Below, one piece after another: positions 36,013 to 46,002 of a stretch of DNA of 64,000 nucleotides; positions within the stretch are counted from its first letter, which is position 1; the number at the start of each line of letters is the position of its first letter. Source of the stretch: Haloplanus salinus (GTDB lineage: Archaea > Halobacteriota > Halobacteria > Halobacteriales > Haloferacaceae); assembly GCF_003336245.1 (NCBI RefSeq), contig NZ_QPHM01000001.1, positions 2,732,113-2,796,112 of the forward strand, written 5' to 3'. A program made the translations under genes and the position numbers. A model generated the notes under the pieces. The model saw only the letters and a list, made by a program, of their open reading frames with translations. It was not told the origin of the DNA and searched no databases.

Positions 36013-36576
36013 TCAGTCGTCTTCGGTACCGTTCTTGGGCGGATGCTTCTGGTCGGGACAGTTCACGTCGTACGTCCGGTCCGTATCCGTAACTCGGACG
36101 CCAGGACCCGTGGCTTCGACGACTTCGACTTGCAGTCTCTCGGCGCCCTCCTTGGTCCCGTGGCCAGTCGGTCCGTATATCTCCAGGTAGATGCTTTCAC
36201 CCGCTCCGTACGTCTCGTTAAAGACGATGCGGGTCGATTCGTCCGGCCCCAGCGGTTCGGCCGGACCGGCTTTCGGCGTCCGCTTCGCTCTGACGCGGAC
36301 GTAGCCGCCCAAAGCCGTCACCCGCAGTTCGATGCGGTCGATGTCCGAACTGAACTGGTTGCGTATCAAGGATTGACCGGTACCCTTCGTCGCACTGCTT
36401 CCGGGCCCGCAGGTCAAATCTTCGTCGAGCCCAAGATACGCCTTGTCGCCCGCCACGACGCTCACACTCACGTCCCGCTCCGCCGACACCGAACTGTAAC
36501 TCCCGACGCCGAGCGCCATACTGGCCGCGACACAGAGGGCGACCAGCGCGACGACGCGCCGGGTGCGCCGGCTCAT
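36013..36576 (-). CDS. Secreted DUF1102-like protein
   Basis: This 187-residue protein has an N-terminal hydrophobic segment (RVVALVALCVAASMALGVGSY) followed by SSVSAERDVSVSVVAGDKAYLGL. This matches the start of the mature DUF1102 proteins encoded just to the right (FTSVSADRSLNVEVADD). Two cysteines may form a disulfide. It overlaps the DUF7344 regulator by 4 bases (ATGA), so the two are co-expressed. I infer a surface-filament or cell-envelope role by similarity to its neighbours; it is more diverged than they are. Confidence 0.78.
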   Translation of the reverse strand: MSRRTRRVVALVALCVAASMALGVGSYSSVSAERDVSVSVVAGDKAYLGLDEDLTCGPGSSATKGTGQSLIRNQFSSDIDRIELRVTALGGYVRVRAKRTPKAGPAEPLGPDESTRIVFNETYGAGESIYLEIYGPTGHGTKEGAERLQVEVVEATGPGVRVTDTDRTYDVNCPDQKHPPKNGTEDD

Positions 36577-37109
36577 CGCTCGACTTCGGGTGGCGGCCCG
36601 TCGGTTCCGAGACGCATCCCGCGGGTGTAGTAGGTGTGGACCAGCGCCATCGTGGCGATGGCGATGACGGTGAACACCGCCAGATCCACGTCACTCAGGC
36701 CCGCCAACGGCGGCAAGTCGAGCGCGTGGCCGAACATCACGCCCCCGGCGAGTCCGCCGACCCCGAGATAGTAGAGGCTCCAGGGCACGTCGTGGCCCTG
36801 AACCACCTCCAGGTAGAGGTCGACGTCGGCGGCCGCCTCGGTGAGTTCGACCTCCGCGTCACGTTGATCGAAGACAACCAGATCCAGCTTCTCCATCTTC
36901 GGCAGGTGGAACTGCTGGAGCGACGTGTAGACGTTCTTGCGCGCGTCCGACCCCACGGCCGCGACGTCGATACCGTTCTCCCAGGCGGCGACGTGCTCCG
37001 CGAGCGTTCCCAAGGCCGCCCGCGGCCCGTTCCGCTGCAGATAGTGGATGACGAACCGCCGCCGTCGGTTACTCAACACCTCGTAGACGTCGTCTCGTGC
37101 CAGGCTCAT
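36573..37109 (-). CDS. DUF7344 winged-helix regulator with two membrane spans
   Basis: This 178-residue protein has an N-terminal DUF7344-type domain (DDVYEVLSNRRRRFVIHYL, LGTLAEHVAAWENG, RKNVYTSLQQFHLPKMEKL, VVFDQRDAEVELTEAA, about 5-105). The domain resembles a winged helix-turn-helix. Two hydrophobic segments follow (LYYLGVGGLAGGVMFGHAL and LAVFTVIAIATMALVHTYY). A DNA-binding domain tethered to the membrane next to surface-protein genes suggests a one-component regulator sensing envelope state. It is divergent from the DUF1102 array. Confidence 0.82.
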   Translation of the reverse strand: MSLARDDVYEVLSNRRRRFVIHYLQRNGPRAALGTLAEHVAAWENGIDVAAVGSDARKNVYTSLQQFHLPKMEKLDLVVFDQRDAEVELTEAAADVDLYLEVVQGHDVPWSLYYLGVGGLAGGVMFGHALDLPPLAGLSDVDLAVFTVIAIATMALVHTYYTRGMRLGTDGPPPEVER

Positions 37110-37389
37110 GTCGTTCGAGTCCCCCCCAGCGCACGCGTCCGGGTCGGTCGATTCTGAACACGGCTTCGCATATAAATGACTGTCATTGTCAAATCGACGA
37201 CCGACTTTCAGGCCCGGTCAATCCCCCGGTCAATGACCGTTCGAAGCCGGATCAACGTCGCCCTGAAACCGGGATACGCATTCGTTGAACCGGTTCTATC
37301 GCCCCGTTGTAGACGGCTCAATCGGCTTACTACAAACGGGGTAGGGGTCCAGGGGTGTGATGTGCTCCGGACGGGGCACGTGAACAACA
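37110..37389. promoter_or_regulatory. Divergent promoter region and leader hairpin of the DUF1102 array
   Basis: CGCATATAAATGA (37168-37180) is a strong TATA-like element that could serve the leftward regulator gene. Near the right gene, bases 37302-37341 form a long hairpin: CCCCGTT/AACGGGG and GTAG/CTAC, with a 17-base loop and one bulged A. No TATA box lies 25-30 bases before the ATG at 37,390, so a leader RNA containing this hairpin is likely. Confidence 0.5.
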
Positions 37390-38013
37390 ATGCAACGGCG
37401 AAAGTTCATCGCTGGTGTGGGATCGCTGGCCGCTGGCGCGGCGGCCGTGACTGGTACTGGTGCGTTTACGAGTGTGAGTGCAGATCGGAGCCTCAACGTG
37501 GAAGTGGCCGACGACAGCAGTGCCTTCCTGCAGATTCAAGAGAGTGACGGATCAAACGCTGCCTACGCCAACGAGACCAACGGGACGCTTGAGTTCAACA
37601 TCGACGACGCAGCAAACACCGACGGTGGTCAGGGATTGAACGATGACGCGCGGACGATCATCCGCGATGTTTTCCAGATCACCAACCAGGGGACCCAAGC
37701 TGTCTACGTCTTCATCGAGACTGAGGACATTCCGGATGGGGTGGGCATCTTCTCCGACTACCCCGCCAACGCCGAATCCGGAGCAGGAGATCCTGGTCCT
37801 GGTTCCTCCGAACCGACCGTCGGTCTCGGCGAGGGGACCCAGAGCAAAACCGGTGCGCCGGATCACCCCAAGCCCGAACGGATTCTGGTTCCGGTCGGCG
37901 AGACGATGGATGAAATCGGATTCTCGTTCAAAACCGGGAGCTACGGGAGCCTCGACGAGGCCGACTTCCCGTGGACGCTGACCATCCAGGCCGTCGCGAA
38001 ATCCGAGTACTGA
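37390..38013 (+). CDS. DUF1102 secreted protein 1 (TasA/AbpA-like candidate)
   Basis: This 207-residue protein has MQRRKFIAG, a Tat or SipW-type N-terminal signal, then a hydrophobic stretch ending TGTGAFTSVSAD. The mature domain carries the family signature seen in its neighbours: GLNDDARTIIRDVF, then ITNQGTQAVYVFIE. The strand-rich pattern fits a jellyroll-type beta sandwich. DUF1102 proteins have been related to the filament subunits TasA (Bacillus) and AbpA (Pyrobaculum), which polymerise by donor-strand exchange after cleavage by a dedicated signal peptidase; one is encoded 3.7 kb downstream. The filament role is inferred. Confidence 0.85.
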   Translation: MQRRKFIAGVGSLAAGAAAVTGTGAFTSVSADRSLNVEVADDSSAFLQIQESDGSNAAYANETNGTLEFNIDDAANTDGGQGLNDDARTIIRDVFQITNQGTQAVYVFIETEDIPDGVGIFSDYPANAESGAGDPGPGSSEPTVGLGEGTQSKTGAPDHPKPERILVPVGETMDEIGFSFKTGSYGSLDEADFPWTLTIQAVAKSEY

Positions 38014-38054
38014 GCACATCCGACTCCACGATACACCCCACGTCGGCATGCAGC

Positions 38055-38112
38055 GTCTCCGAATCCTTCGGAGACACACGCGACGGCGGTTCGACTCCGC
38101 CGGTGGGCCTCG
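38055..38112 (+). promoter_or_regulatory. Leader RNA hairpins before DUF1102 protein 2
   Basis: A perfect 9-bp hairpin (GTCTCCGAA/TTCGGAGAC, 3-base loop) lies at 38055-38075. It is followed at 38084-38102 by CGGCGG-TTCGACT-CCGCCG, which looks like a tRNA T arm. The 31 bases at 38082-38112 recur with two C/T changes at 38820-38850, before the next paralogue. No matching acceptor strand exists upstream, so it is not a tRNA. Confidence 0.55.
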
Positions 38113-38135
38113 CCCGCGAGGGCGACCGAACAACC

Positions 38136-38741
38136 ATGCAACGACGCAAGTTCATCGCCGGGATGGGATCGCTCGCCGCCGCCGGGGCGGCCACTGTCGG
38201 GACGGGCGCGTTCACCAGCGTGCAGGCCGATCGGAGCCTCAACGTGGAGGTTGCGGACGACGCGAACGCGTTCCTCGCTATCGAGCCGCAGAGTACCGAG
38301 AACGGAGACGAGTACGCGAGCGTCAACGGTGACGGTACCGTCACCCTCGACTTCACGGGAGACGACGATACGAGCACCGACATCGGGTCGGGGCTCAACA
38401 AGGACGCCGACACGACGATTCGGGACATCCTCAAAGTCAGCAACCAGGGGACGCAGGATGTTGTCGTCGGCGTGAGCGGTCTTCCGAGTAGCATGAGCAT
38501 CTACACCGATGACGGGAGTGTGGCGGCCAACGGTAGCAGTACATCGCTGAATCAGGACAACTACCCGCCGAACTCGGGCAACCTCGCTCTCGTCGAAGTC
38601 GGCGAGATCATGAGCGATGTCGGTGTCATCTTCCGTGATCCGCCGAACAATCTTGACTTCAGCGGATCGCTCACGTTCAACGCCATCGCTGTCGACGAAC
38701 TTTCCAACTTCGACGCCAGCCAGTACCCCGACAACCTCTAG
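38136..38741 (+). CDS. DUF1102 secreted protein 2 (TasA/AbpA-like candidate)
   Basis: This 201-residue paralogue of the preceding gene has an almost identical signal (MQRRKFIAGMGSLAAAGAA) and FTSVQADRSLNVEVADDANAFL at the mature start. It also has the family block GLNKDADTTIRDI, then VSNQGTQDVVVGVS. The high similarity at the start and lower similarity later suggest a tandem duplication followed by divergence. There is no clear TATA box in the 122-base gap before it, so it is probably in one transcript with protein 1. ATG 38,136 is chosen at the signal peptide. Confidence 0.85.
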   Translation: MQRRKFIAGMGSLAAAGAATVGTGAFTSVQADRSLNVEVADDANAFLAIEPQSTENGDEYASVNGDGTVTLDFTGDDDTSTDIGSGLNKDADTTIRDILKVSNQGTQDVVVGVSGLPSSMSIYTDDGSVAANGSSTSLNQDNYPPNSGNLALVEVGEIMSDVGVIFRDPPNNLDFSGSLTFNAIAVDELSNFDASQYPDNL

Positions 38742-38819
38742 CGCAAACAGATCCAACTCAAACGATTCACAGAATCTACGAGGAACGACATACCCACGCT
38801 GGCATACCTCCGTTTCAGG

Positions 38820-38850
38820 GACGGCGGTTCGACTCCGTCGGTGGGCTTCG
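38820..38850 (+). promoter_or_regulatory. Second copy of the T-arm-like leader hairpin
   Basis: CGGCGG-TTCGACT-CCGTCG at 38822-38840 repeats the structure at 38084. The single stem change C to T keeps the stem by a G-U pair. Together with identical flanks (29 of 31 bases), this points to selection on RNA structure. A purine-rich AGGAGAG precedes the ATG at 38,881. Confidence 0.55.
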
Positions 38851-38880
38851 GTCATCCGATCGACACAGGAGAGAGATCAT

Positions 38881-39921
38881 ATGAAACGACGAAAACTGTT
38901 GCTCGGAATCGGAACTATATTGGGGATGAGTGGAACCGTCGGTTCCGGCGCGTTCACAAGCGTTAGCGCCGAACGAACCGTGAGTGTCGCGGTCGCGGAC
39001 GACCCCGACGCGTTCCTCTCGCTCGGTCCCTGTGACGGGCCGAACGGCGACTACGTGACCGTCGAGGGCGGCGTGGCGTCGATAGACCTCTCCCCGTCGA
39101 ACACGCAGGTTCCGGGCAGCGGCGTCAATAACGACGCCGTCTCGGTGTTCGACGACGTGTTCGAGATCGCCAACCAAGGCACCCAGCCCGTCGGCGTGTG
39201 GCTCGACGCCGCTCCCGCGACGGACCGCAACGGCGACCCGGTGGTGGAGTTCTATCGGAACGGCGACCGGAGCACGGAAATCATCGGCCAGGGGAACGCA
39301 GTCTGCCTCGGTGTTGGCGAGGACATCTGCGTCGGCTTGCGGACGGACACCCGGAGCGAACGCTTCGATCCCGGAGATAGACTCCTCAACCTCGTCAGCG
39401 GAGGCCACGAACTGATCGTCAACGCCGATGCAACGGTCGCGTGCGACGCCGGCACCCCTACAGGCGGCGGTCCACTGCGTCTGAACACCGGCGTCGCGGA
39501 CTGGCAGGTGGTCGAAGTGCCGCAGAGTGCGACCGACGACGCGCCGTCGACGCCGTACGACGCGAAAGTTGTCGATCCGCCAAGTGCGTGGGCGACATCG
39601 GAAGCCGACGCTGAGTGGGTCGACCCGTTCGGTACCGGAGGTCTCAAAGCCGATCCGGACGGCGCGTACGCGTACGAACTCGACATCCCTGCGTCCGGAA
39701 CGCTCGTCGTCGAGGAGTACGGCTCCGACAACCCCGTCGAGTTCTTTCTCAACGCTTCGAGCATCGGCGGATCGGGCGGTCAGAGCGCGTTCGGCTCGCT
39801 CCGCTCGGGCGTGCCCGATCAGACGGTCAGTTCCGGGGACACACTCCGAGCCGAAGTGACCAACAACTCCGGTTCGTCGGGGAATCCGACTGGGCTACTG
39901 GTGGCGGCTCGACTCGAGTAG
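38881..39921 (+). CDS. DUF1102 protein 3 fused to a second extracellular beta domain
   Basis: This 346-residue secreted protein starts with a Tat-type signal (MKRRKLLLGIGTILG) and the family start GAFTSVSAERTVSVAVADD. The DUF1102 signature is GVNNDAVSVFDDVF, IANQGTQPVGVWLD. From about residue 195 a second domain begins: LRLNTGVADWQVVEV, PPSAWATSEADAEWVDP, GAYAYELDI, DNPVEFFLN and NPTGLLVAARL. This strand pattern resembles extracellular domains found in bacterial PEP-CTERM proteins. If the DUF1102 part polymerises, this fusion could be a tip or minor subunit exposing an adhesive domain. Confidence 0.82.
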   Translation: MKRRKLLLGIGTILGMSGTVGSGAFTSVSAERTVSVAVADDPDAFLSLGPCDGPNGDYVTVEGGVASIDLSPSNTQVPGSGVNNDAVSVFDDVFEIANQGTQPVGVWLDAAPATDRNGDPVVEFYRNGDRSTEIIGQGNAVCLGVGEDICVGLRTDTRSERFDPGDRLLNLVSGGHELIVNADATVACDAGTPTGGGPLRLNTGVADWQVVEVPQSATDDAPSTPYDAKVVDPPSAWATSEADAEWVDPFGTGGLKADPDGAYAYELDIPASGTLVVEEYGSDNPVEFFLNASSIGGSGGQSAFGSLRSGVPDQTVSSGDTLRAEVTNNSGSSGNPTGLLVAARLE

Positions 39922-40156
39922 TTCGGGACCGCACATTCTCGAATACATTAGTGTAGTGAAACTGGGTTGACTGTTGGACGCACGCCCGATGCCTGAGGGT
40001 CTCCGGTCGCCTCCCAGTGACGCGACTCACCATCTTCAAGGACTGCTTTTGCCCCGGCCCACTCATTCAATCACGTTAATACCAAATACGTGTAGTCGTG
40101 TGCCCCAACACGAACCCGCGGGTGCGAACGCGGTCCCCTACGCATACAGTCGAATC

Positions 40157-41656
40157 ATGTCACCACGCCGAACCGCTGTCTTCATGATCGCCTTCGCGGC
40201 ACTAGGTCTCGTTCTCCCGACCGTCGCAGCACCACTGACGGGACAGGCGACCGACTCCGTCTCCGACAACGTCGCCCTCACCACCGAGAACAGCGCCAAC
40301 GCAGAGTACGTCCGGACCACGGAAACGGGTGATATCACGCTCGACCTCTCACCTTCCGACCCCGCCCTCGCAGCCGACGGCCTCAACCCCGAAGCCCGGA
40401 CGTACGTCGCGGACGCCTTCCGAATCCGGTACGACGGCGACACCGAAGCCACCGTCTGGATCACGAACGACGCCGCGAGCGTGACGTTCCTCGCGGACGG
40501 GGCACCGATCGACGCCCGCGCCGACGCTGTCACGCTGGCGCCGGAGGAGTCCGTCGCGGTGGGCGTCGTCGTCGACACCAGGGGCGCGACGCCGCCCGAA
40601 TCGAGCGAGTTCACCGTCCGGGCGAACGTAACCGACGCCGGCACGGAGACGGCTGACCCCGCGCCGGGTATCGCCGCGCCCGACCCCGAGGAACCGGCGA
40701 CGACCCGAGTCACGAGCCCCACGCCGACGAGTCGCGCCTTGAGCCTCCGCGACACCGCCGACGGGCGCTCCGTCACGCTCGACTTGAATCGCCTCGTCGT
40801 CGCCCGCGCCGGCGACGGCGCCCTGACGCTCGACGACCTGACGGTCGTGAGCGACGGTGGGGACTTGGACCTCGAGGTGAGCAGGACGACGCCCGATTCG
40901 GCGGGCGCGCTCCCGGCCGACGCGGGCGTCCGTCCCCTCGGGGCCGTGCGCGTCGTGGAGCGCCGCGGCGGGGTCGAGCGGGCGACGCTCCGGTTCGGCG
41001 TCGACCGGGCGTATCTGGACGCGGCCGGCTACGCTCCCGAAGACCTGACCGTCTACCGGTACGACGGCCGCGAGTGGTCCGAGCGCGGCGTCGAGGTGGT
41101 CTCGCGGAGCGACGAACGCGTGTTCCTCGAAGCCGGGACGCCCGGGTTCTCGACGTTCGTCGTCGCCGCGGCGGTGCCCGACCTGCGGGTGACGGATGCG
41201 GACTTCCGGACGGGACCGGTACCGGCCGGGGAGGGGGCCACCGTGACCGCCGAGGTGACGAACGCGGGCGACGCACCCGGGGCACGGACCGTCGCCCTGA
41301 CACTCGACGGCGACCCGGTCGCGGAGCGGCGGGTCGACCTGACCCCCGGCGAGTCGACGACGCTGTCGTTCCGGGCCGATCCGTCGAGCGCGGGGACGTA
41401 CGACGTCCGGGTCGGGTCGGCCGACGTGGGGCGTCTCGTCGTCGAAGGGTCGGAGCCGGACACCGGCGGCGACGAGGGGACGCCGGGTGAGGTTGGGCCG
41501 TCGTCGCCCGCCACCTCGACATCGGTCGAGGCGCCGGCCGGCGCGGAAACGCCGGCCGTCGAGCCGGCCGGTGGGGCGCCGACCGAGACGCTGTGGCTCA
41601 CCCTCCTCGTCGGGGTGGTAGCGTTGCTGGCGCTCGTCCGTCGGCTGCGAGAGTAG
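40157..41656 (+). CDS. Secreted PGF-pre-PGF protein with C-terminal membrane anchor
   Basis: This 499-residue protein has a signal peptide (TAVFMIAFAALGLVLPTVAA) and then a DUF1102-like first domain (GLNPEARTYVADAF, IRYDGDTEATVWIT). A PGF-pre-PGF domain follows at about 290-345 (ATLRFGVDRAYLDAAGY, LTVYRYDGREWSERGVE, TPGFSTFVVAA). Next come a CARDB-type beta sandwich (about 350-430), a Pro/Thr/Gly linker, and a C-terminal helix (LWLTLLVGVVALLALVRRLRE). The end resembles PGF-CTERM tails but lacks the PGF triplet. It probably anchors to the cell surface. A TATA-like GTTAATACCAAA lies near 40,074. It may be the cell-wall anchor of the cluster. Confidence 0.85.
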   Translation: MSPRRTAVFMIAFAALGLVLPTVAAPLTGQATDSVSDNVALTTENSANAEYVRTTETGDITLDLSPSDPALAADGLNPEARTYVADAFRIRYDGDTEATVWITNDAASVTFLADGAPIDARADAVTLAPEESVAVGVVVDTRGATPPESSEFTVRANVTDAGTETADPAPGIAAPDPEEPATTRVTSPTPTSRALSLRDTADGRSVTLDLNRLVVARAGDGALTLDDLTVVSDGGDLDLEVSRTTPDSAGALPADAGVRPLGAVRVVERRGGVERATLRFGVDRAYLDAAGYAPEDLTVYRYDGREWSERGVEVVSRSDERVFLEAGTPGFSTFVVAAAVPDLRVTDADFRTGPVPAGEGATVTAEVTNAGDAPGARTVALTLDGDPVAERRVDLTPGESTTLSFRADPSSAGTYDVRVGSADVGRLVVEGSEPDTGGDEGTPGEVGPSSPATSTSVEAPAGAETPAVEPAGGAPTETLWLTLLVGVVALLALVRRLRE

Positions 41657-41718
41657 CCACCGTCGAGCGCTCACCGCCGACCGAGGTTTTTTGCCCCGGC
41701 TCGCGTTCGTGTGAATCG

Positions 41719-42870
41719 ATGCCGTCGGCCCGTCGCGTACTCGCGCTCGGACTCGAACTCCTCCTCGTCCTCGCGGTCGTCTCGCTTCTCGCCGGCCAGC
41801 TCCTCGGTCAGCCCGTCCTCCTCAGCTACGTCGAGACGGGGAGCATGGCGCCGACGATGGAGCCCGGCGACGGGTTCGTCGCCGTGCCGTCGGCGGTCGC
41901 TGGAGAGGTCGAGGAGGGCGACGTGATCACGTTCCGTGCCGAGGAGATTCAGGGCGGCGGCCTCACGACCCACCGCGTCGTCGGCGAGACGGAGCGGGGG
42001 TACGTTACGCGCGGCGACGCCAACCCGTTCACCGATCAGGACGGTGGCGAACCACCCGTAAAGGAGGCCCAAATCGTCGCGAAGGCCCTGGAGGTGGGTG
42101 GCACCGTCGTCGTGCTCCCGAATCTGGGGACGGTCGTCGTCGGGATTCAGGACGTGATTTCGGGGGCGCAGCGGTGGCTCGCGGCGACGTTCGGCACCCG
42201 CTCGCTGCTCGGGCCGCAGGGATTGACCTACCTCCTCCTCGCCGCGTCGGCGCTCGCGTACGTCCTCGACCTCGTGCTCGGCGACGACCGGAACGAGCGC
42301 CGCGAGCGAACGCGGAGCCGCGACGACGGCGTCTCGACGCGGCTCGTGATGGTCGCGCTCGCCGTGTTGGTCGTCTCCACCGCGACGGCCGCGATGGTCG
42401 TCCCCGCGGGCACACAGGAGTTCGGCGTCGTCAGCGCGGAGTTCGAATCGGAGCAGCCGACGACCATCCGGCAGGGCGAGTCGTCGACGCTCCCGTACGG
42501 CGTCCCCAACGCCGGCCTCGTCCCGGTTCACGTCTACTTCGACTCTAGCGACGGCGTCGCCGTCGACTCGGAGTACGTCTACGTCGGCAGCCGGGGCGAG
42601 GCGACGGTCGATCTGACGCTCACGGCGCCGCCCGAGACGGGGTACTACCGGTACTTCGTCACCGAGTACCGATATCTCGCCGTCTTTCCCGCCCCCGTCG
42701 TCGACGCGCTCTACCGGATCCACCCGTGGCTCCCCATCGTCGTCATCGACGCGCTGCTCGGAGGGACGATGTACCTCGTCGGGATGACGGTGGTCGGGAC
42801 CGGCCGCGTCCGGTCGCGGTCCCGAGATGGGCCGTCCGCGCTCCGCCGACTGGCGAACCGGTTCGGCTGA
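41719..42870 (+). CDS. S26-family signal peptidase I with long C-terminal extension
   Basis: This 383-residue membrane protease has an N-terminal anchor helix (LELLLVLAVVSLLAGQLL) and the catalytic Ser in ETGSMAPTM (S42). THRVVGE supplies the His (H85) that replaces Lys in archaeal and ER-type enzymes, and TRGDANPFTDQ carries the conserved Asp residues. The protease core ends near residue 165. The rest comprises membrane spans flanking an extracellular beta domain (FESEQPTTIRQGESSTLPYGV), as in SipW-like enzymes dedicated to filament proteins. Its location among DUF1102 genes suggests that it processes them. ATG 41,719 is chosen at the anchor helix. Confidence 0.9.
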   Translation: MPSARRVLALGLELLLVLAVVSLLAGQLLGQPVLLSYVETGSMAPTMEPGDGFVAVPSAVAGEVEEGDVITFRAEEIQGGGLTTHRVVGETERGYVTRGDANPFTDQDGGEPPVKEAQIVAKALEVGGTVVVLPNLGTVVVGIQDVISGAQRWLAATFGTRSLLGPQGLTYLLLAASALAYVLDLVLGDDRNERRERTRSRDDGVSTRLVMVALAVLVVSTATAAMVVPAGTQEFGVVSAEFESEQPTTIRQGESSTLPYGVPNAGLVPVHVYFDSSDGVAVDSEYVYVGSRGEATVDLTLTAPPETGYYRYFVTEYRYLAVFPAPVVDALYRIHPWLPIVVIDALLGGTMYLVGMTVVGTGRVRSRSRDGPSALRRLANRFG

Positions 42871-42921
42871 CGGTTGTCGCTCCCTCAAGTTTCTTAATGC
42901 CCCGTCGGAAACGAATCGGGC

Positions 42922-44088
42922 ATGTCGTTGGGGGGCGATCGAGATCGGCAGGGCGTGCGTGTGCGTGCGATTCTCGACGACTGGTTCTGGGCCGTCGCGC
43001 TGGTCGCCGTCGTGGTCGCCGGCGCGGGCGGATACGTCACGTACACCGCGTACGCCGACCCGGGAACGACCGTCGAGGAACGGCAGGTGTCGAGCTGGGA
43101 GGGGAACGGGAGTTACGCGACGACGGCGACGGTGACGGAGCCGAACCCGCTCTACCCGGTCGGGACCACGCTCGAAGACCGACCGGCGTACTTTCTCGCG
43201 GTGAGCCCGCGATTCGACGGCACGTTCGCGTTCGAGTACCGAGCGACCCGGGGTGGTGCGGTGGACGTGACGGTCGAACAGAGGCTCGTCCTCCACAGCG
43301 TGACCGAAGACGAAGGGGCGGCGATCGAATACTGGCGGATCGAGGAGCCGCTCGGCACCGAGACGGCGAGCGGCGTCGCCCCCGGCGAACCGGTCCGGTC
43401 GACGTTCTCGCGGAACGTCAGTCGGCTCGCGAACCGGGCCACGAACGTCAGCGAGCGACTCGGCGGGACGCCCGGGGAGACGGAGGTGCTGGTCGTCACT
43501 GCCGTCGGTATCGACGGCGAGGTGAACGGGCAGTCGGTCGAGCGAACCGCGACGTACCGGCTTCCGATAGCCAGCGACGGGTCGACGTACGCCCCCGGCG
43601 AGATGGGCGGTCAGGCGGTCACCGGCTCGACGACCGAACGGATCGCGCGCGAGCGGACGTACGGCCCGGCGTGGCGGGTCGGCGGCCCGGCCGCGTTGCT
43701 GCTCGGCGTCGGCGGCCTCGTGGGACTCGCGTACGGCCGATACGACGGTCGACTGACCGTCTCGGCGGCCGAGCGCAACCGCCTCGACGTCGCGGCGACC
43801 CGCGAGGAGTTCGACGACTGGATCACGACGGCGACGCTCCCGCCGGCCGTCCTCGGTCGCCCGCGGGTCGAGGTCGACTCGCTCGCCGGGTTGGTCGACA
43901 CCGCCATCGACGTCGACGCCCGCGTGTTCGAGCGGCCGGACGGCGGCGAGTTCTACGTCCCCCACGAGGGACTGTTGTACGCGTACACGCCGCCGAGAGG
44001 TGAGAGCGTCGCGGCGGACGGGCAGAACGAGGCGTCGACGGAGCATCCCGCCGACGGTGAGAGCGACGCGGACGCCGACGAGTCGTAG
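42922..44088 (+). CDS. DUF5305 membrane protein
   Basis: This 388-residue protein matches the DUF5305 pattern: an N-terminal helix (FWAVALVAVVVAGAGGYVTYTAY), a large extracellular domain beginning with VEERQVSSWEGNGSYATTATV and NPLYPVGTTLEDRPAYFL, a second membrane helix (PAALLLGVGGLVGLAYG) and a cytoplasmic tail that becomes strongly acidic. The family repeatedly occurs next to S26 signal peptidases in haloarchaea. The molecular role is unknown; an assembly platform or chaperone for surface proteins is a reasonable inference. It starts 51 bases after the signal peptidase gene. Confidence 0.85.
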   Translation: MSLGGDRDRQGVRVRAILDDWFWAVALVAVVVAGAGGYVTYTAYADPGTTVEERQVSSWEGNGSYATTATVTEPNPLYPVGTTLEDRPAYFLAVSPRFDGTFAFEYRATRGGAVDVTVEQRLVLHSVTEDEGAAIEYWRIEEPLGTETASGVAPGEPVRSTFSRNVSRLANRATNVSERLGGTPGETEVLVVTAVGIDGEVNGQSVERTATYRLPIASDGSTYAPGEMGGQAVTGSTTERIARERTYGPAWRVGGPAALLLGVGGLVGLAYGRYDGRLTVSAAERNRLDVAATREEFDDWITTATLPPAVLGRPRVEVDSLAGLVDTAIDVDARVFERPDGGEFYVPHEGLLYAYTPPRGESVAADGQNEASTEHPADGESDADADES

Positions 44089-44133
44089 CCCGGCGCCGAA
44101 AGCGGTTTGATCCCCTCGTCCGTGGTAGCGGAC

Positions 44134-46002
44134 ATGTCCGACCTCGGCGACTTCACCGACTTCTCCTCCGACGACGGCGATGGCGACGGTGACGGTGACG
44201 GTGACGGCGACGGCGCATCGACCTCGCCGTCGTCGGACGCCACCGCCGACGCCGACGACTTCGAACCCTACGAGGTGTCGCCCGCCGGCGCCGACCGCGG
44301 CCTCGGCTCCATCTCCGTCTCGCAGGGGCTCCGGGTGTCGGAGGACGGCGACGAGACGACGCTCGAGGCCTTCGTCACCAGCGACAACCGCGAGTCGGTG
44401 CGGCTCGGGAAGTACCTCCTCGTCCCCTATCCGGACGACGAGACGCTGTTCTGTCGGATCACGGCCCTGGAGTACGCCCAAGAGTTCGAGGCGGACGACG
44501 CGACCGAGATTCACGCCCGGCGGGCGATGCGCCGCGACGACTTCGCGGAGCGGGACTACAAGTTCGTCGCGTCGCTCGATCCCGTGGCGGTCCTGTTCTC
44601 GGAGAGCGGGGCGCAAGGCGCCTCCGGTAACCGGACGAAGTCCGGTGACGGGGACGACCTGCAACGGCGGATGGTCGACCGGGTACCCAAACCGGGTGCG
44701 GTGGTGCGCGAGGCGAGCGACGCCGAGCGGATCAAGACGGGGCTGGCCATTCCGAGCGACGGCGTCTTCGTCGGCCATCTCTCGGTCGGCGGCGAGACGG
44801 TTCGGACCGCAGCGTCGCCGCCGACGATCGATTACCGGCTGAAAGACGACTACGCGGACGGCGACCCCCTCGTTTTCCGTCACACCCTCGTCGCCGGCGG
44901 CACGGGATCGGGCAAGACCCACGCCTCGAAGAACGTCCTCCGACAGTATCTCGACACCACGTATCCGATGGACGACGGGCGCGAGGTGGCGACGGCGGTG
45001 GTCCAGTTCGACCCGCAGGACGAGTACGCCCAGATGCACGACGACAACCCCGGCATGACCGACGCGGTCGCTCGCCGCCTCGACCGGGAGGGCGTCGCCC
45101 ACGGCGGCCACGACGACACCATCGCGTTCGTCCCGGAAGTCGGCGACGCGTCGTACGACGGCGCCACCCACCGCGCCGAGCAGGTGCCGTTCACCGTCCC
45201 GTTCAGCATGGTCCGCCGCCGGCCGTGGCTGGTCGCGGGCGCCCGCCTCAACGACAACCAGTATCAGGCCCTCGACTACTTGCTCGACCGCTTTTTCGAC
45301 GACTACGGCGACGCGGGGACGTACGACGACTTCACGACCTACCTCGACGACCCGGCGCTCCGCGAGGAGCTCGACGAGTCGGGGCGCGTCCATGAGGCCA
45401 CCTTCGACGCCGTGCGCCGGCGAGCGCTCGGGAGCGCCTTTCGCCGCGTCTTCGACCGGGACGCCCGCCCGGTCACCGAACTGGTCCACGAACTCGTCCG
45501 CCCCGGCGGGCTGACGGTGGTGCCGACCTACCACGTCAACGACTCGCGGGCGACGGAACTGGTCGTCCTCGCCGTCGCCAGCCTGCTGGTCGACGAGAAG
45601 TTGTCGAACGACCCCACATACGACCGTATCGAGGAGACGCCACTGATCGTCGGGATGGACGAGGCGCACAACTTCCTCACCGACGCCGAGAGCGTGCAGG
45701 CCCGGAAGGTGATCACGAAGTTCACGGAGGCGGCCAAACAAGGCCGGAAGGAGCGACTCGGCCTCTTTCTGATCACCCAGGACCCACAGGACGTGGCGGA
45801 GTCGGTGTTCAAGCAGGTGAACACGAAACTCGTCCTCAACTTGGGCGACGAGGACGCGATCAAGAGCGTCAACATCCCGCCGACGTTGGAGGACAAGGTG
45901 CCGTACATGGCGAAAGGCCAGATGGTCGTCTACTCGCCGGACAACTCCGAACCGGTGGAGGTGACGGGGCTGTCGACGTGTGTGACGCGGCACGGGGAGT
46001 GA
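44134..46002 (+). CDS. herA: HerA-type DNA translocase ATPase
   Basis: This 622-residue hexameric-type ATPase has an acidic Gly-Asp repeat at residues 14-27 and a HAS-barrel region (about 55-125). A HerA/FtsK-like motor follows, with Walker A GGTGSGKTH (255-263), Walker B LIVGMDEAHNF, and LITQDPQDVAESVF carrying the sensor and arginine region. HerA pumps DNA for the NurA nuclease during double-strand break resection. NurA is encoded 9.5 kb upstream rather than adjacent. ATG 44,134 is used; nothing upstream resembles the family. Confidence 0.88.
   Translation: MSDLGDFTDFSSDDGDGDGDGDGDGDGASTSPSSDATADADDFEPYEVSPAGADRGLGSISVSQGLRVSEDGDETTLEAFVTSDNRESVRLGKYLLVPYPDDETLFCRITALEYAQEFEADDATEIHARRAMRRDDFAERDYKFVASLDPVAVLFSESGAQGASGNRTKSGDGDDLQRRMVDRVPKPGAVVREASDAERIKTGLAIPSDGVFVGHLSVGGETVRTAASPPTIDYRLKDDYADGDPLVFRHTLVAGGTGSGKTHASKNVLRQYLDTTYPMDDGREVATAVVQFDPQDEYAQMHDDNPGMTDAVARRLDREGVAHGGHDDTIAFVPEVGDASYDGATHRAEQVPFTVPFSMVRRRPWLVAGARLNDNQYQALDYLLDRFFDDYGDAGTYDDFTTYLDDPALREELDESGRVHEATFDAVRRRALGSAFRRVFDRDARPVTELVHELVRPGGLTVVPTYHVNDSRATELVVLAVASLLVDEKLSNDPTYDRIEETPLIVGMDEAHNFLTDAESVQARKVITKFTEAAKQGRKERLGLFLITQDPQDVAESVFKQVNTKLVLNLGDEDAIKSVNIPPTLEDKVPYMAKGQMVVYSPDNSEPVEVTGLSTCVTRHGE
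44170..44214 (+). repeat. Gly-Asp coding hexanucleotide repeat in herA
   Basis: About seven copies of a GGN-GAY unit, several of them identical GGTGAC, encode alternating Gly and Asp near the HerA N-terminus. Slippage would add or remove whole Gly-Asp pairs without a frameshift. The tract is probably disordered. Confidence 0.85.

Follow-up and report, generated by a model that had tools for sequence, protein, structure and literature searches.

Which kind of surface structure is specified by the eight genes at positions 36,013 to 44,088 of the window, the 64,000-nucleotide stretch of Haloplanus salinus DNA analyzed here, and how might its subunits be put together? The first-pass annotation of this DNA read the cluster as a surface-filament or biofilm-matrix locus related to bacterial TasA and archaeal AbpA. 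The filament part of that reading is supported by the match of the encoded proteins to those of the Tat-fimbriae, or tafi, and to the solved subunit of a Tafi pilus, and the tafi-type gene cluster very probably builds thin surface fibres in this archaeon. As described in PMC12687288, tafi are thin haloarchaeal surface filaments that are exported by the Tat pathway and have TafA as their core component; the same article cites Galeva et al. (iScience 2025, 28:111793) for the original report. While the system itself is thus already known, the sequence logic by which donor segments and a conserved block are distributed among its subunits seems to be new.

All eight open reading frames of the first-pass annotation were recovered in the ORF listing (Table 1; proteins are named by the first coordinate of their genes). 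The G1 and DUF7344 genes overlap by four bases, and the layout [G1-DUF7344 | pilins-anchor-S26-DUF5305] is found again across haloarchaeal genera. Family matches uphold the proposed identities of the DUF7344 regulator and the DUF5305 protein (Table 1), as well as that of the S26 signal peptidase, which scores 60.7 bits against TIGR02228, a model for archaeal type I signal peptidases. The peptidase further matches the SipW model (1.6e-7) and carries Ser42-Met43 and His85, with S42 and H85 invariant, so that the dedicated processing enzyme envisaged earlier is an S26 peptidase of the SipW type. Protein 40157 exceeds the PGF-pre-PGF cut-off (35.5 bits), contains a CARDB domain according to Pfam, and has a membrane helix at residues 474-499 by hydrophobicity, as expected of the membrane anchor it was taken to be. 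For the DUF7344 protein two membrane helices had been claimed: one clear hydrophobic segment (134-162) passes the threshold applied, and a second (about 113-130), judged by eye, is plausible. After the locus, at window positions 44107-46002, the same strand encodes what by eye is a HerA-like ATPase of 631 aa; we see no reason to include it.

Table 1. Genes of the tafi-type locus, with positions in the window and main sequence features.
Feature	Position	Strand	Features
G1 protein	36013..36576	-	187 aa; hydrophobic signal; donor-like segment SYSSVSAERDVSVSVV; without G-x-N-x-x-A block
DUF7344 (winged-helix-like) regulator	36573..37109	-	Pfam 3.5e-28; C-terminal hydrophobic segment(s)
TafE/DUF1102-like pilin 1	37390..38013	+	Tat-type signal, donor segment and block; TafE 1.2e-19; 9p0a 2.4e-14
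TafE/DUF1102-like pilin 2	38136..38741	+	Tat-type signal, donor segment and block; TafE 1.8e-18; 9p0a 6.1e-14
TafE/DUF1102-like pilin 3	38881..39921	+	about 150-aa extra C-terminal domain; TafE 7.1e-21; 9p0a 1.7e-11
TafF-like anchor	40157..41656	+	Sec-type signal; pilin-like head without donor segment; PGF-pre-PGF and CARDB; C-terminal membrane helix
S26 signal peptidase, SipW/ER type	41719..42870	+	TIGR02228 over cut-off; C-terminal Ig-like extension; several membrane segments
DUF5305 membrane protein	42922..44088	+	Pfam 2.4e-48; near S26 in 53/56 loci

The relationship to tafi is apparent at several levels. Firstly, all three pilins match TafE, one of the four tafi families in NCBIfam (TafA, TafC, TafE and TafF, NF052520-NF052523), with E values from 1e-18 to 7e-21, and each of them as a single sequence matches the PDB chain 9p0a_C (E 2e-11 to 2e-14; 1.2e-19 for the profile match of the pilins to 9p0a), an entry that appears in the fold search under the title 'Structure of Natrinema sp. 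J7-2 Tafi pilus'. Homology to this 2025 structure covers the signal, the donor strand and the block; identity over the fold match is only about 21%, however, and the C-terminal halves are unlike. Secondly, the head of 40157 matches TafF (1.3e-8) and the N-terminus of 36013 matches TafA (3.7e-5). Thirdly, locus L046, which holds a near-identical homologue of the 9p0a subunit (5e-117), has the window's order of pilin, anchor, S26 and DUF5305, and loci with TafA, TafC, TafE and TafF over cut-off also hold the same S26, DUF7344 and DUF5305 genes. Taken together, the gene order of L046, the neighbours found in true tafi loci and the TafE, TafF and 9p0a matches identify the locus as one of the tafi kind.

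Among all window proteins, none reaches the NCBIfam equivalog cut-off for TafA, TafC, TafE or TafF: the best scores against the cut-offs, in bits, are 39.5/190, 39.9/410, 76/155 and 34.8/420, respectively, and the window proteins are thus relatives rather than proven orthologues. Since the near-identical homologue of the solved pilin also falls below the TafE cut-off, at 77 bits, these cut-offs delimit a subgroup within tafi. Membership is therefore assigned to the tafi kind and not to the TafA, TafC, TafE or TafF equivalogs. With Haloarcula-type tafi the locus shares Tat-type signals, TafE-like pilins, a TafF-like anchor and the S26, DUF7344 and DUF5305 neighbours; it differs in having three TafE-type pilins in a row and no TafA or TafC over cut-off, in a G1 protein without LamG, and in an anchor with PGF-pre-PGF and CARDB where TafF (L055, L091, L092) has a low-complexity stalk and two C-terminal membrane segments. 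DUF1102 (PF06510) is matched over its cut-off by 38881 and a paralogue, with 37390 and 38136 remaining below. Though tafi are a recent description, this locus type occurs in over half of the sampled haloarchaeal genomes, and most of the loci surveyed lie outside the curated TafA/TafE subgroup.

That these genes belong together is evident from their conservation as neighbours, as the first-pass annotation had anticipated. Of 56 DUF5305 loci from about 50 genera, chosen without regard to pilins, 53 have S26 nearby, 45 DUF7344 and 50 pilins. In the genome to which the window belongs, this type of S26 has just four occurrences and DUF7344 has 17, so that chance neighbours within 20 kb are expected at about 2% and 10%, respectively. 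Across 195 sampled haloarchaeal genomes, TafE-type pilins (118) and DUF5305 (126) occur together in 114, TafE-type pilins alone in 4, DUF5305 alone in 12 and neither in 65, giving an odds ratio of 154 in a test that ignores kinship. The collection was queried with the S26 profile (261 related places); the pilin profile had no conserved stretch. The 80 loci reached via the S26 protein show the same gene order, and the number of pilin genes between DUF7344 and S26 ranges from 0 to 4, which marks the pilins as the changeable part of the system and the anchor, S26, DUF5305 and DUF7344 as its core. In L095 and the Halorubrum loci L109, L120, L121, L129 and L131, the core genes (G1, DUF7344, anchor, S26 and DUF5305) are present with no pilin between DUF7344 and the anchor; their pilins are on the opposite side or may be encoded at another place in the genome.

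The pilins begin with a twin-arginine motif (of the MQRRKFIAG or MKRRKLLLG type; MQRRKF, MQRRKF and MKRRKL in the window), a feature absent from their first-pass description. The RR motif is present in 177 of 196 related pilins, and the hydrophobic core of their signals is weaker than in the anchors. An AlphaFold model of mature 38136, built with 40 sequences, is mainly beta (pLDDT 74.6, pTM 0.70), with its first strand at residues 9-15. When this single-chain model was compared with the PDB using Foldseek, self-complemented FimA, 9p0a, AbpA of Pyrobaculum (7ueg) and the thread of Sulfolobus (7pnb) were among the best matches, although their scores are modest (E 1e-3 to 5e-2, TM 0.37-0.48); the predicted fold thus resembles the beta-sandwich of donor-strand pilins, and the earlier suggestion of an AbpA-like donor-strand fold agrees with it. 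AbpA and the Sulfolobus thread have in common with the window pilins a single-domain beta-sandwich and, putatively, the N-terminal donor strand, but lack a sequence match to them. A type IV pilus or archaellum, with its class III (PibD-type) signal peptide and T4P helix, was considered and rejected, as the window proteins have no such family match and the pilins combine a Tat-type signal with an all-beta fold. In 9p0a, 188 of 215 residues are observed, which fits the loss of everything through GTGA; judged from these lengths, cleavage before the F of GTGAF would be close to the situation in TasA, where residues 28-38 form the donor strand (PMC9674648).

To examine the start segment (donor-like) and the G-x-N-x-x-A...NQGTQ block separately, a small profile of each was built and scored against a background of 1500 unrelated ORFs. 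As both profiles were built from pilins, low scores of divergent G1 or anchor proteins may in part reflect divergence and not absence. The donor profile gave 25.8 bits for 37390, 25.5 for 38136, 21.8 for 38881, 15.4 for 36013 and -2.8 for 40157, with 1 of the 1500 background ORFs reaching 5 bits, while the block profile gave 50.5, 46.2 and 46.8 for the three pilins in the same order and 9.7 for 40157, with none in the background and no block found in 36013. Measured against this background, the resemblance is far above chance. Of two earlier claims, the block in four proteins is corroborated, whereas the FTSVSA-D/E-R start, ascribed to five secreted proteins, holds for the three pilins and 36013 and fails for 40157. 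The same division recurs across the loci when proteins are assigned to classes from where their genes lie, which family they match and how hydrophobic their C-termini are: the donor segment is detected in 211 of 249 pilins, 66 of 78 G1 proteins and 1 of 80 anchors, and the block in 190 of 249 pilins, 60 of 80 anchors and 1 of 78 G1 proteins.

If a subunit has a donor strand but no accepting site, it can only start a chain, while one that accepts without donating can only end it; as the block-only protein has a membrane helix, G1 would form the free end of the chain and the anchor its end at the cell. The sequences thereby suggest that the chain is polar, with a distal G1 and with the anchor as its base; going by its distribution, the block would line the acceptor groove. 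Specifically, the pilins would fold inside the cell and be exported by Tat, whereupon the neighboring SipW-type S26 peptidase would cut them directly ahead of the phenylalanine in GTGA|F. The cut would free the N-terminal strand RSLNVEV to complete the beta-sandwich of the next subunit by donor-strand complementation, as predicted. Having a donor strand and no block, G1 could not accept and would form the first unit, at the distal end; the three shaft pilins (37390, 38136 and 38881) would both donate and accept; and the TafF-like anchor 40157, with a block and no donor, would take the last strand, its C-terminal helix fixing the fibre to the membrane. DUF5305 would work with the peptidase to process subunits or pass them on, and DUF7344 would regulate the divergent operons. 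Considered as a whole, a tafi-family pilus formed as a polar donor-strand chain, with S26 processing alongside DUF5305 and regulation by DUF7344, is the best explanation of the locus, and one that we hold with considerable confidence.

The assignment of ends makes 36013 the candidate chain-starting, distal subunit. Its position is kept in 78 loci and corresponds to that of TafC, behind the DUF7344 gene, in true tafi loci, where TafC carries a LamG lectin-like domain that fits an exposed end for the G1 position. Protein 38881, previously proposed as a tip or minor subunit, has both elements and an extra domain and may be internal or near the tip; 36013 and 40157 are the likelier chain ends. The extra C-terminal domain (window 39466-39918), for which Pfam gives no match, has two relatives among the loci read (L117, L080) and is possibly adhesive. 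The comparison of about 140 loci thus offers a suggestion of how the fibre starts, grows and attaches to the cell, and yields a testable rule for which protein lies at which fibre end. An unlikely variant of the same pilus would have its ends reversed, G1 serving as a cell-proximal nucleator and the block-only membrane protein as a tethered chaperone. There is a precedent in TapA, which has been suggested to supply TasA with its first donor strand close to the surface of the cell (PMC9674648), and the G1 genes do lie with the regulator, away from the structural operon; yet both the membrane helix and the anchor-type stalk belong to the block-only protein, and the lectin-like domain of TafC is suited to the outer end.

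The first-pass comparison with TasA raises a further alternative, namely a genuine biofilm-matrix operon of the TasA/CalY type, resembling tasA-tapA-sipW and a homologue of the bacterial system. As in the TasA/CalY and SipW system of Bacillus, a SipW-type S26 peptidase is present and an N-terminal strand would be freed at an A|F-like site, the signal end GTGA|F resembling GTxAYF; outside the Halobacteriales, moreover, the DUF5305-S26 pair, common to this locus and TasA-type archaeal loci, adjoins proteins that have SipW-cognate signals and match camelysin/TasA. The pilins themselves, however, show no detectable sequence relation: set against the archaeal camelysin/TasA-type profile, the pilin profile reaches a probability of 1.2%, the window proteins have no TIGR04088, TasA or camelysin match in Pfam or NCBIfam, TasA does not occur among the 50 best fold matches of 38136, and the pilin signals are of the Tat type, not Sec. 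TasA membership of the locus is thereby largely refuted, and such an operon is very improbable. Individual adhesins, associated with the S-layer or belonging to the matrix and alike in their secretion signal but not forming one fibre, would accommodate the variable pilin gene number and the extra C-terminal domains found repeatedly in other long members (LamG in 5, right-handed beta-helix in 4), but are scarcely credible given the direct relation of the pilins to the solved pilus subunit 9p0a and the complementary distribution of donor and block.

Within the tafi-type locus as we read it, the place of DUF5305 is illuminated chiefly by loci outside the Halobacteriales. Its AlphaFold model (pLDDT 95.1) comprises an N-terminal membrane helix, a long extracellular beta domain, a second helix and a small cytosolic domain; a fold search of the PDB returned scattered Ig/arrestin-like pieces and nothing close (TM normalized by query length no higher than 0.21), and with no close solved relative the structure does not indicate a function. 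Outside the order, all 10 loci taken hold S26 within the 15-20 kb stretch around DUF5305, and 8 of them encode proteins with SipW-type starts (such as GTLAYFSDTETS); the five of these eight that were scanned all match TIGR04088 and camelysin models, and four match TasA weakly. DUF5305 thus travels with SipW-type peptidases and TasA/camelysin-type proteins and is probably a general partner of the processing enzyme, the simplest reading being that it is the partner of the SipW-type S26 peptidase class. This is a first functional clue for DUF5305, and it links the fibres of the tafi and TasA types through a common processing module. We tentatively extend the model to an usher-free assembly in which a donor-only starter (G1/TafC), a shaft of subunits with donor and acceptor, and an acceptor-only anchor (TafF) are joined, with DUF5305 as a general SipW-type partner in tafi- and TasA-type loci of the Halobacteriota; such a generalization may well prove too broad.

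One further locus outside the order and within the same phylum, L181, holds three strong DUF1102 (PF06510) proteins with the same neighbours as in the window (S26, DUF5305 and DUF7344). By eye, two of the three have the donor segment and one does not, and their signals are Sec-like, not Tat-like; Tat export may consequently have arisen later, among the haloarchaeal members of this fibre family. A second S26 gene of the window's genome (G000:C1:581600-583700; L094:410-2499) encodes a protein whose C-terminus is the DUF5305 cytosolic domain (PF17231 163-215). It is followed by a gene for a 328-aa secreted protein that matches no Pfam or NCBIfam model and has a CalY/TasA-like start, GGAAALFHDSESFGESTVSAGVVDLEAEP. 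The same genome contains two further TafE-type pilins at G000:C1:1689093-1690211 (L001, L089), with no S26, anchor or DUF5305 gene within 10 kb, and a third, lone TafE-type pilin at C1:2098103-2098501 (L090); these may act as alternative subunits that the main locus serves.
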